This document shows positions 19,957-37,848 of a DNA stretch of 64,000 bases, in pieces. The DNA is from Candidatus Saccharimonadota bacterium (GTDB taxonomy: Bacteria; Patescibacteriota; Saccharimonadia; Saccharimonadales; UBA4665). Position 1 is the first letter of the stretch. Each line of letters starts with the position of its first letter. The translations under genes and the position numbers were made by a program. The stretch is from the NCBI GenBank assembly GCA_028289125.1, contig JAQGGZ010000010.1, forward strand, positions 124,001 to 188,000. Reading direction: 5' to 3'. The notes beneath the pieces are model-generated. The model was not told the origin of the DNA, did no database searches, and was given only the letters and a program-made list of their open reading frames with translations.

Positions 19957-20292
19957 ATGTCAGAAGTCTCGTCCGACGCCTCGGGGTTATATGATGCGTG
20001 GGTCGAGTTTGAGACGGCTGCTGTCGAGGCTGAAAAGGCTGCCCGGGCCGGCCAACGCCGGCAGTGGGTTGAAGACAGCGTCGAATTAGTCGGGGATTAC
20101 GTGGCCGCAGCCGAGGAGCACCCGCTCAAAGTGGGCTTGCCGGCCGCCATCGGTGGTGCCGCTACGCTTTTCATGTGTGGTCTCACTAATTACGGCGACA
20201 ACCAGAGTGCAGCCGTGTCGGGCGGCATAGCAGCCTATTCTTTTTGGGCTAGCTGGATGATGTACAAAAAGGTCCGTTACGACGACATTTAG
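19957..20292 (+). CDS. Small membrane protein downstream of nusA
   Basis: A 111-residue protein with a charged N-terminal half (about 50 residues, likely helical) and two hydrophobic segments (about residues 60-75 and 85-102, VSGGIAAYSFWASWMMY). I do not recognise a family. It starts 4 nt after nusA and is likely co-transcribed. Its stop codon lies inside the CIRCE operator of clpC, so operator and coding sequence overlap by 4 nt. Confidence 0.75.
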   Translation: MSEVSSDASGLYDAWVEFETAAVEAEKAARAGQRRQWVEDSVELVGDYVAAAEEHPLKVGLPAAIGGAATLFMCGLTNYGDNQSAAVSGGIAAYSFWASWMMYKKVRYDDI

Positions 20293-20315
20293 CACTCTTG
20301 ACGTGAGAGTGCTAA
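20289..20315 (+). promoter_or_regulatory. CIRCE operator of clpC (perfect)
   Basis: TTAGCACTC-N9-GAGTGCTAA is an exact match to the CIRCE inverted repeat bound by the heat-shock repressor HrcA. The 9-nt spacer TTGACGTGA contains the -35 hexamer of the clpC promoter. Confidence 0.93.
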
Positions 20316-20327
20316 TGGCGTTACTAT
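20298..20327 (+). promoter_or_regulatory. clpC promoter nested in CIRCE
   Basis: TTGACG-18 nt-TACTAT, with the -35 inside the CIRCE spacer. Predicted start near 20334. A leader of about 113 nt follows, with an 8-bp hairpin (AGTGTTTA/TAAACGCT, 20357-20381) and GAAAGGTGG before the ATG. Confidence 0.75.
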
Positions 20328-20446
20328 GGATACATGGTACGTTTTTAGGGCAAAACAGTGTTTAAACTCACAGTAAACGCTCAAGCGGTTACCGTAAAAT
20401 GATTAGAGTAGGACAGTAAGTCTTACAAGAAAGGTGGATCATAGAT

Positions 20447-22933
20447 ATGACTCCGGATAGCCCCGACTTCCAAGATTTTCTTAATCATCTGACGAATAAT
20501 GCTTTGAATAGTTTGAAGCATGCTGACGGCATTGCCCGCAGCTTCGGCAGTGCGTACGTCGGTACAGAACACTTACTGCTCGGCTTGCTCGCGCAAGACG
20601 GCAGCATGGGTGCAAAATTATTAGAAGGCGTCGGTGTGACGCTTGACCGGGCCCGTCTGGCCTTAAATCTGACGCCAAAGGCTACGCTTGTTATCAACAT
20701 GGGTGCGAAGGGTCTTAGTGAGACCGCTAAGCTAACCCTGAAGATGGCATACGACGTTGCCCTCGATTATAACCAGGAATTCTGCGGTACCGAACATATC
20801 CTTTACAGCATCCTCAGCCAGAAGAACGCCCGTGCGACCATCCTCTTGCGTGATATGAATATCGATGTCGATTCTCTGACGAACGAGCTCGAGCAGTTCC
20901 TTAACCGCCAGCAGTTCGAAGGTTCCGACAACCAAGCTGCCGGCCGCCGGACGAACAGCAAGAAGCAGCGCAAGACGGCTCTCGACTTTTACGGTACCGA
21001 CCTGACCGAGCAAGCCCGTAACGGCAAACTTGATCCCGTCGTTGGCCGCGATAATCAGATCCGCCGTGTCATTACTATCCTGAACCGCCGCACCAAGAAC
21101 AACCCGGTCTTAATCGGAGAACCTGGTGTCGGTAAGACCGCCATCGTCGAAGGCCTGGCACAACGCATCATCAGCGAAGACGTGCCAGACGCTCTGATTG
21201 ATAAGCGTATCGTTCTTTTGGACCTGGCAGGAATGATCGCTGGCACCAAGTACCGCGGTGAGTTTGAAGAGCGCTTGAAGAAAGTGATGGCTGAGCTCGA
21301 AAAAGACAATAAGACCATCGTATTCATCGACGAGCTGCACTTGATCGTCGGTGCCGGTGCGGCCGAAGGCGCCATGGACGCTGGCAACATCTTGAAGCCG
21401 GCACTGGCCCGTGGCAAGATTCAGGTCATCGGTGCCACGACGACTGCCGAATACACGAAGCACATCGAAAAGGATGCCGCCCTGGAGCGCCGGTTCCAGC
21501 CGGTTCAGGTTCCGGAGACCACGGTCCCCGAGACCGTTGCCATCCTGAAGGGTCTGCGCAAGCACTATGAGAGTTTCCACGGCGTGACCATCAGCGATGA
21601 AGTCGTCGAAGACATCGTCAACCTGGCGAAGCGCTACATCAATGACCGGTTCATGCCGGACAAGGCAATCGATCTGCTTGACGAGACGGCCGCCCACTTG
21701 CGTGTCGACCGCGGCAAGACCAGCCCTGAAGTCCGCAAATTGCAGAAAGAGCTTAAACTCGTCAATACTCGCATCGAAGACGCTGTTGACAGTGAGGACT
21801 ACGAAAAAGCCGCAAAGGAAAAGACCCGCGCCAGCCAGATCAATGAAGAATTGCAACAGATGCAAGCCGACGGTAAGCACACACAGAGCATCAAGCTGAC
21901 CAGTGATGACGTCGCCGAAGTCGTTTCCCGCATTACCGGCGTACCGGCTACCAAGGTCATTCACGCCGAGGCTAAATACCTTCTGAATCTTGAGAAGCGG
22001 CTCGGTAAGTTCGTAATCGGTCAGCAGGAAGCCGTCGCAGCCGTATCAAGGGCTGTCCGCCGCAACCGTTCCGGTATCGGTTCGACCAACCGGCCGATCG
22101 GTTCATTCATCTTCCTCGGTCCAACCGGGGTTGGTAAGACCGAGCTGGCCCGTGTCCTGGCCCGCGAATTCTTTGGCAGCGAGAATAACCTCGTCAAGAT
22201 CGACATGAGTGAGTTCGGCGAGCATCACAACGTATCGCGTCTGGTCGGTGCACCTGCCGGTTTCGTCGGTTATGATGACGGCGGACAGTTGACTGATAAG
22301 ATCCGACGCCAGCCATATAGCCTGGTACTGTTCGACGAAATTGAAAAAGCCCACCCGGACGTATTCAACATGCTACTCCAGATTCTTGAGGACGGTCGTC
22401 TGACAGACGCCAAGGGGCGTAGCATCGATTTCACGAATACCATCGTGATCATGACGAGCAACATCGGCGCCGATAAGTTGCAGAAAGAGGCCAACTTCGG
22501 TTTCCGCGTCTCGAACAAATCCGGTGAAAAAGACCTCGATGAACTCCATGACCAGAACAGATCACGGGTGCTCGACGAATTGAAGAAGGCTATGCGCCCT
22601 GAACTGCTCAACCGTATCGATAAGACCATCGTGTTCCGTGCCTTGACTAAAAAGGACATCCACCACATTATCGATCTACAGGTTGACGAACTGAAGGGCC
22701 GCTTGCAGAAGCATGGTCTCGGCCTGCAACTGACAGCAGCCGCCAAGCAGTACTTGCTCGAGCATGGTTATGATTCCAAGAACGGCGTGCGCCCACTTCG
22801 TCGCTTGCTCCAGGATACGATCGAAGACCAGCTGGCTATCAACTTACTGGATGATAAGTACAGCAAGGGTGAAATCATCCAGGTCGCCGCGAAGCAGGGT
22901 GAGCTTGTTTACACCTCTTCACACGAACAATAA
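20447..22933 (+). CDS. clpC: ATP-dependent Clp protease ATPase subunit ClpC
   Basis: An 828-residue Hsp100 unfoldase that feeds substrates to ClpP. It has an N-terminal Clp-N double repeat ([30 protein letters not shown]), AAA+ module 1 with Walker A GEPGVGKT (about residue 224) and Walker B FIDELH, a short middle domain with a UVR-like [13 protein letters not shown] segment, and AAA+ module 2 with Walker A GPTGVGKT (about 557). The short middle domain favours ClpC over ClpB. CIRCE control matches clpP in this window. The ClpP-docking loop reads GFRVSN, less clear than the usual IGF/LGF. Confidence 0.93.
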
Positions 22934-36471: not shown

Positions 36472-36486
36472 CCCTTCTGCTAAAGT
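36458..36486 (+). promoter_or_regulatory. Promoter of tig, leaderless arrangement
   Basis: TTGCCC-17 nt-TAAAGT, with the -10 ending 8 nt before the tig ATG at 36495. The -35 lies in the last codons of the upstream gene. Confidence 0.55.
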
Positions 36487-36494
36487 TGATAGTT

Positions 36495-37781
36495 ATGCAT
36501 ATAGAGACGAAACAACTTACCGACACCCGTCTGCAGCTTGATATCGCTGCCGACGCCGACCAACTTAACGACGCCAAGCAGGAAGCTTTACGCGCGCTGC
36601 AAAAGCAGGTCAAGCTGCAAGGCTTCCGTGAGGGCAAAGCGCCCCTGGCCATGGTTGAAAAAAGTGTCGACCAGAACCGCCTGCAAAGCGAATTCCTGGA
36701 GATAGCCGTTAACCGCATTTATATCGATGCCGCTACCAAAGAAAACCTGCGCCCGGTATCAGCCCCTGACATCAATATCCAAAAGTTCGTACCGTTCACT
36801 GATCTTGAAATCCGTGCCGAAGTGGACGTCATCGGCAAGATCAAGCTGCCGGACTATACGAAGATCAAAGTCGCCAAGCCCGCCGTTAAGGTGACGGCCG
36901 AAGATGTCAACAAGGTCCTCGAGGATTTGCGTGACCGGACGGCTGACAAGAAGCCGGTTGAGCGCGCCGTCAAAATCGGCGATGAAGCCGTCATTGATTT
37001 CGTCGGTACCGATGAAGAAACCGGTGACCCGCTGCAGGGCGGTGCCGGCACTGCCTACCCGTTGCTTCTCGGCAGTAACAGTTTCATCCCTGGTTTCGAA
37101 GACCAGCTGGTCGGCCTGAAGGCCGGTCAGGAGAAGACTTTCCAGATCACATTCCCGGCTGATTACGGCGTCGCCGCTTTACAGAACCGTAAGGTCAGCT
37201 TTGCGGTGACAGTCAAGCTCGTCCACGCCATGTCCAAGCCGAAGCTGGATGATGAGTTTGCCGCCAAAGTCGGTCCGTTCAAGGCATTGGCCGACCTCAA
37301 GAAGGACATCAAGGCCCAGCTGACACAGGAAAAAGAACAGCAGTCCGAACGTGAATTTGAGAATGATCTGGTCGCCAAGATCGCCGACAAGACCACCTTG
37401 GCCATTCCGACCGCACTGGTTGATGAAGAACTCGACAGCCTCGAACGTGATGAGCGTCAGAACCTGGCTTACCGTGGCCAGACATGGCAGGAACACCTCG
37501 CAAGCGAAGGTGTCACCGAAAACGAACACCGTGAAAAGAACCGTGGCCCAGCTGAGCAACGCGTCAAGGCCGGCCTTATGTTGTCCGAAATCGCCGAGCG
37601 TGAAAAGCTTGAAGTCACCGCAGATGAGATTGACGAGCGTATCAACCAGCTGAAAGGACAATACAGCGATCCGCAGATGCAGGCCGAGCTGGATAAAGCC
37701 TCCAACCGTCGCTCAATCGCCAGCCGTATCCTGACTGAAAAGACACTGGCCAAGCTCAAAGACTACGCCCAAAAAGCCTGA
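36495..37781 (+). CDS. tig: Trigger factor
   Basis: Ribosome-bound chaperone and peptidyl-prolyl isomerase. The 428-residue protein has the N-terminal ribosome-binding domain (VKLQGFREGKAPLAMVEK, carrying the GFRxGKxP signature), an FKBP domain (AVIDFVGTDEETGDPLQGG, FIPGFEDQLVGLKAGQEKTF) and the C-terminal helical cradle (VTADEIDERINQLKGQY). An in-frame TTG at 36486 was rejected in favour of the ATG. It lies directly before clpP, an order (tig-clpP) common in bacteria. Confidence 0.95.
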   Translation: MHIETKQLTDTRLQLDIAADADQLNDAKQEALRALQKQVKLQGFREGKAPLAMVEKSVDQNRLQSEFLEIAVNRIYIDAATKENLRPVSAPDINIQKFVPFTDLEIRAEVDVIGKIKLPDYTKIKVAKPAVKVTAEDVNKVLEDLRDRTADKKPVERAVKIGDEAVIDFVGTDEETGDPLQGGAGTAYPLLLGSNSFIPGFEDQLVGLKAGQEKTFQITFPADYGVAALQNRKVSFAVTVKLVHAMSKPKLDDEFAAKVGPFKALADLKKDIKAQLTQEKEQQSEREFENDLVAKIADKTTLAIPTALVDEELDSLERDERQNLAYRGQTWQEHLASEGVTENEHREKNRGPAEQRVKAGLMLSEIAEREKLEVTADEIDERINQLKGQYSDPQMQAELDKASNRRSIASRILTEKTLAKLKDYAQKA

Positions 37782-37782
37782 G

Positions 37783-37809
37783 TTAGCACTCTTGACATGA
37801 GAGTGCCAG
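37783..37809 (+). promoter_or_regulatory. CIRCE operator of clpP (one arm imperfect)
   Basis: TTAGCACTC-TTGACATGA-GAGTGCCAG: the left arm is perfect and the right arm differs from consensus at two positions. It starts 2 nt after tig. Confidence 0.88.
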
Positions 37810-37821
37810 ACCCCGTATGAT
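37792..37821 (+). promoter_or_regulatory. clpP promoter nested in CIRCE
   Basis: A perfect TTGACA is inside the CIRCE spacer, then 18 nt, then TATGAT. Predicted start near 37828. GAAAGGTGG lies before the ATG at 37849. The layout copies the clpC promoter. Confidence 0.78.
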
Positions 37822-37848
37822 TAGTACATACTAACGAAAGGTGGTTAC

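Follow-up and report, generated by a model that had tools for sequence, protein, structure and literature searches.

The control of genes by the repressor HrcA through its operator CIRCE is textbook knowledge. The class I regulon of Bacillus subtilis covers the dnaK and groE operons, and the canonical HrcA (1stz) combines a winged-helix domain, a GAF-like domain and an inserted dimerising domain. Other bacteria usually give control of the ClpCP protease to CtsR. In the CtsR regulon of Firmicutes (ctsR-clpC, clpP and clpE), clpC and clpP are repressed in unstressed cells and released by heat. The two repressors reportedly meet at clpP of Streptococcus salivarius, for which Chastanet and Msadek are said to have described dual regulation in 2003, with HrcA as the second regulator beside CtsR. 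The HrcA regulon of mycoplasmas comprises clpB, lon and dnaK (PMC4245973, PMC5138195). Our literature search on HrcA in Saccharibacteria or CPR found no report, and almost nothing on stress-gene regulation in Saccharibacteria is on record in the literature searched. Here we analyse a clpP locus of Saccharibacteria whose promoter very probably belongs to the HrcA regulon, in which HrcA would repress both clp genes by occupying their -35 boxes.

Operators and promoters of clpP and clpC

The window, which is the whole stretch of 64,000 nucleotides analysed, comes from a genome of 874 kb in 11 contigs that is about 89% complete. The operator and promoter of clpP read TTAGCACTC-TTGACATGA-GAGTGCCAG-ACCCCG-TATGAT (Table 1), and both the TTGACA box within the CIRCE spacer and the TATGAT box 18 nt further on are present as the initial annotation had described them. 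Set against the CIRCE pattern, TTAGCACTC-N9-GAGTGCTAA with at most about two mismatches and near a promoter, the site overlaps its promoter and agrees with the consensus at 16 of 18 arm bases. Both mismatches fall in the right arm, and we count this imperfection against control by HrcA. With up to three mismatches allowed, the window contains exactly two CIRCE sites, those of clpP and clpC, compared with a mean of 0.03 in shuffled windows; two sites were reached in none of 100 shuffles. Each of these two sole sites holds the -35 box in its spacer, which bears out the CIRCE-in-promoter design previously claimed for both genes.

Table 1. Features of the clpC and clpP loci, in positions of the window
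Feature	Position	Strand	Basis or remark
CIRCE operator of clpC, perfect	20289..20315	+	CIRCE search; kept in 30/30 loci
-35 box TTGACG of clpC, within CIRCE spacer	20298-20303	+	sequence
Candidate -10 box TACTAT of clpC	20322-20327	+	sequence
Shine-Dalgarno sequence GAAAGGTGG of clpC	20429..20437	+	sequence
clpC-type Clp ATPase, 828 aa; Clp_N, two AAA domains, D2-small	20447..22933	+	Pfam
tig (trigger factor), directly upstream of clpP	36486..37781	+	Pfam
clpP CIRCE and promoter	37783-37821		
CIRCE operator of clpP	37783..37809	+	TTAGCACTC-N9-GAGTGCCAG, 2 mismatches; kept in 56/58 class members
Left arm TTAGCACTC	37783-37791		
Spacer TTGACATGA	37792-37800		
Right arm GAGTGCCAG	37801-37809		
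-35 box TTGACA of clpP, opens CIRCE spacer	37792..37797	+	sequence; register conserved in relatives
-10 box TATGAT of clpP	37816..37821	+	18 nt past -35 box; moves with -35 register in relatives
Shine-Dalgarno sequence GAAAGGTGG of clpP	37836..37844	+	sequence
clpP, 203 aa	37849..38460	+	Pfam CLP_protease, E 9.3e-76

In the window, clpP has a short leader carrying the Shine-Dalgarno sequence GAAAGGTGG, which occurs exactly twice there, at clpC and at clpP (0.31 copies expected; two reached in 3 of 100 shuffles). The initial annotation had taken this common ribosome-binding site to point to one regulon. We rejected it as a regulon mark because such a Shine-Dalgarno sequence is nothing unusual and many relatives lack a leader that could hold it.

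Conservation in relatives and displacement of the clpP promoter

We compared 300 nt upstream of clpP in the genome itself and in 49 relatives from its family and order. All 50 loci have a CIRCE with up to three mismatches (28 with none, 16 with one, five with two and one with three), so that the arms carry at most one mismatch at 44 of them, and the best match in 1000 shuffled upstream regions had four. Among three further relatives, two have the site at clpP and one lacks it (G054); the phylum-wide sample contributes two loci with the site and one without from the order, and two with it from the class. In the negative genome of the order (G164), clpP lies 20 nt behind a clpC that has a perfect CIRCE itself. 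Altogether, CIRCE stands directly upstream of clpP in 56 of 58 members of the Saccharibacteria class, a count of loci rather than of independent evolutionary events that covers about 25 families, with most of the named genomes being metagenome assemblies. The initial annotation had proposed this footprinting, with a clpP repeat lost beside a kept promoter as the finding that would speak against it; repeat and promoter proved to be kept together, which speaks strongly for a functional operator.

At clpC, the operator (up to two mismatches) was found at 30 of 30 loci, 19 of them perfect, and in seven of seven additional class members, giving 37/37 in the class. Among the other Patescibacteria, CIRCE precedes clpP in three of 51 genomes, two of the three from one family, and clpC in six of 33. 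In the phylum sample, 100 of 116 genomes encode HrcA, all eight class members among them; by our own count, these eight have three to seven CIRCE sites per genome (up to two mismatches), against a median of one elsewhere. Because HrcA is widespread in the phylum and the clp operators are rare outside the class, control of ClpCP by CIRCE would appear to be a trait of the Saccharibacteria class, or to have been lost elsewhere.

The position of the promoter within the operator is not the same in all relatives. In the 27-mer at clpP, TTGAC starts at position 10 at 28 of the 50 loci and at position 14 at 20, and no exact TTGAC was seen between these positions at any of the 50. The two registers mirror each other across the dyad. 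In 19/28 loci of the first group the -10 box begins 5 nt behind CIRCE, in 15/20 of the second 9 nt behind it, and the commonest gap between the two boxes is 17 nt in both groups. Judged from these registers, the two clpP promoter boxes have shifted together by 4 bp, and the operator arms have stayed in place. Since the -35/-10 pair shifts in this way in 20/50 genomes, promoter and operator are distinct, overlapping and separately conserved elements. The clpP promoters thus offer a natural experiment, in which a promoter slides by 4 bp under a fixed operator.

This displacement bears on another reading, by which the inverted repeat would be a chance palindrome in a constitutive housekeeping promoter, kept just for its -35 box. 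Almost all copies do have TTGAC in their spacer, but both nine-base arms are kept where the promoter has moved, the arm mismatches at 44 of the 50 loci are far below those of the shuffled regions, and the groES site has nearly the same arms even though it lies outside the -35/-10 region. This reading is already largely refuted, and we give it hardly any credence.

The gene order suggests a different objection. The gene tig precedes clpP at 44 of 50 loci, and in the window CIRCE begins 2 nt past the tig stop codon. HrcA might therefore bind CIRCE with clpP being mainly read through from tig, so that the repressor would only fine-tune expression or act as a roadblock. Such read-through could supply some clpP transcript without the CIRCE promoter. 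As the main source we consider it unlikely, however: relatives keep a good -35/-10 pair between tig and clpP, and at 26 of 47 scored loci no more than 10 nt separate the -10 box from the first in-frame start codon of clpP, as for a dedicated leaderless transcript. With the start codon so near the -10 box, many relatives probably make clpP mRNA without a leader.

CIRCE sites across the genome and a shortened HrcA

The genome-wide search and the inspection of the dnaK, groEL and clp promoters suggested in the initial annotation placed CIRCE at hrcA, dnaK (two sites), groES, clpC and clpP. These six sites (up to three mismatches; none with the reversed control pattern) all belong to protein-quality-control genes. 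The hrcA-grpE promoter has TTGTCA in the CIRCE spacer, TATAAT downstream and the ATG 7 nt further, a distance so short that the hrcA mRNA looks leaderless (L008 7998-8013). Before dnaK, two CIRCE sites stand in tandem (G000:C5 9209-9280), one lying across the -35 box and the other, more degenerate, in the leader; the tandem pair was found again in many relatives. At groES-groEL, TTGACA-18-TATCAT lies upstream and CIRCE starts some 12 nt past the -10 box (reverse strand, our own reading); the in-promoter design is therefore not found at every target. A second ClpB/ClpC-like ATPase (G000:C8:80362-82752), 45% identical to ClpC, has no CIRCE with up to three mismatches, so not every Clp ATPase belongs to the regulon.

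Pfam confirms HrcA (HrcA, E 2.5e-15; HrcA_DNA-bdg, E 1.5e-6), GrpE, DnaK and GroEL in the genome. HrcA was found in 56 of 60 relatives. CtsR was found in none of 60 genomes, this one and 59 relatives, and was detected in the positive control, Lactococcus lactis. The elements of an HrcA/CIRCE regulon are thus in place, with HrcA encoded, operators at hrcA, dnaK and groES-groEL, and conservation in relatives; CtsR, which a CtsR regulon presupposes, is missing from all 60 genomes. The earlier proposal of one HrcA-type regulon over ClpCP is supported by the genome-wide sites, the encoded HrcA, the absent CtsR and the kept clp operators, with the qualification that the groES operator, downstream of the -10 box, does not share the architecture. 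Another repressor, HspR-, ClgR- or CtsR-like, might bind the site or regulate the clp genes in addition to HrcA, for which the dual regulation of clpP reported in S. salivarius (title cited in PMC3842655) could be a precedent. We regard this as very improbable, since the site is a textbook CIRCE and a repressor search that covered CtsR did not find it in the 60 genomes.

We also approached the arrangement independently of clp genes and sought the exact CIRCE/-35 hybrid TTAGCACTCTTGACNNNNGAGTGCTAA in 84,980 species genomes, which gave at least 119 loci. Among the matches listed, the genes directly downstream are clpC (at least 28), hrcA (at least 28), dnaK (at least 18), clpP (at least 16), groEL (at least three) and dnaJ (at least two). 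By title, most of the matches listed belong to Saccharibacteria or further Patescibacteria and a few to cyanobacteria, Chloroflexi and Firmicutes, and the -35-in-CIRCE arrangement is therefore not unique to Saccharibacteria. Of at least 28 unassigned sites, we read 17 by eye; at least eight precede an Hsp20-like gene and one a ClpC-like N-terminal domain, both named from sequence by eye. The Hsp20-like genes with the hybrid (L184, L198, L200, L220, L227, L233, L278 and L294) occur in Saccharibacteria and other bacteria, and at several of these loci the leader may open with a hairpin. The folding energies of leader hairpins after some CIRCE promoters (hsp20, clpC) were not clearly below those of shuffled sequences (z about -2.2 to 0.3).

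By homology, the repressor encoded in the genome (G000:C5 8011-8715; 234 aa) is HrcA in a shortened form. Pfam finds the DNA-binding domain in it, but the match to the C-terminal domain is confined to positions 106-213 of 215, and the same shortening is seen across the phylum. In alignment with three full-length proteins of 342-343 aa, from Clostridiales, Bacillus and another bacterium, the Patescibacteria HrcA of about 220-248 aa lacks one continuous middle block of about 100 residues, whereas the winged helix is complete and includes the PHTSAGRIPT motif. The predicted structure of HrcA from a close relative (L260; mean pLDDT 89.9) superimposes on Thermotoga maritima HrcA (1stz) with a query TM of 0.85 and a target TM of 0.63. 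Outside the missing block the fold is present, winged helix included, and the block presumably corresponds to the inserted dimerising domain of 1stz. The short form might differ from textbook HrcA in dimerisation or stress sensing. It is possible, though rather doubtful, that the short HrcA of Patescibacteria still recognises CIRCE without this domain and has become, in the Saccharibacteria class, the sole repressor of the cytosolic quality-control proteins Hsp70, Hsp60, sometimes Hsp20, ClpC and ClpP. If this were true, its stress sensing or dimerisation would be unlike that of textbook HrcA.

Proposed circuit and comparison with described regulons

What the sequence shows is a conserved operator that overlaps the promoter, an encoded HrcA and a missing CtsR; HrcA binding, repression and a signal through GroEL or heat are what we infer. 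In the unstressed cell, HrcA would sit on CIRCE, cover the -35 box in the spacer and sterically keep RNA polymerase off. When unfolded protein builds up, HrcA would become inactive, by analogy with other bacteria either because GroEL is titrated away or because HrcA senses heat. Loss of HrcA activity would turn on clpC and clpP together with hrcA-grpE, dnaK and groES-groEL. ClpCP would then follow the chaperone repressor HrcA and not a dedicated Clp repressor of the CtsR kind, so that damaged proteins are probably refolded or degraded under the command of a single switch. In Campylobacter, GroE stimulates HrcA binding and HrcA senses heat (PMC8533110). By inference from this analogy, such modulation may carry over to the short HrcA. 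In the transcriptome of TM7x, most chaperones are higher in the initial encounter and one predicted clp protease has its higher level during recovery, so that co-expression of the HrcA regulon is not obvious there (PMC10768705), a point that we count against the model. With about five promoters, the proposed regulon is short and defined, and might provide a testable circuit in episymbionts with reduced genomes.

The closest described system is the HrcA/CIRCE class I regulon of B. subtilis, which shares the operator, the repressor family and the core targets hrcA-grpE, dnaK and groES-groEL. In contrast to B. subtilis, Saccharibacteria add clpC and clpP as targets, place the operator over the -35 box at clpP, clpC, dnaK and hrcA, and have an HrcA of about 234 aa without about 100 middle residues. 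The mycoplasma regulon resembles the present one in its reduced genome and in having CIRCE before protease or disaggregase genes and dnaK, but the former are clpB and lon there, not clpC and clpP. The CtsR regulon of Firmicutes has clpC and clpP as targets as well, whereas here the operator is CIRCE and CtsR is absent from the genomes searched. Control of clpP by HrcA and CIRCE has its reported counterpart in S. salivarius, where CtsR acts too, whereas in Saccharibacteria HrcA apparently acts alone and clpC is included across the class. What is apparently new is a shortened HrcA as the sole repressor of both ClpC and ClpP throughout a whole class. With ClpCP under the chaperone repressor throughout this class and rarely outside it, and the repressor itself widespread in the phylum, Saccharibacteria would represent a clean case of regulon rewiring.
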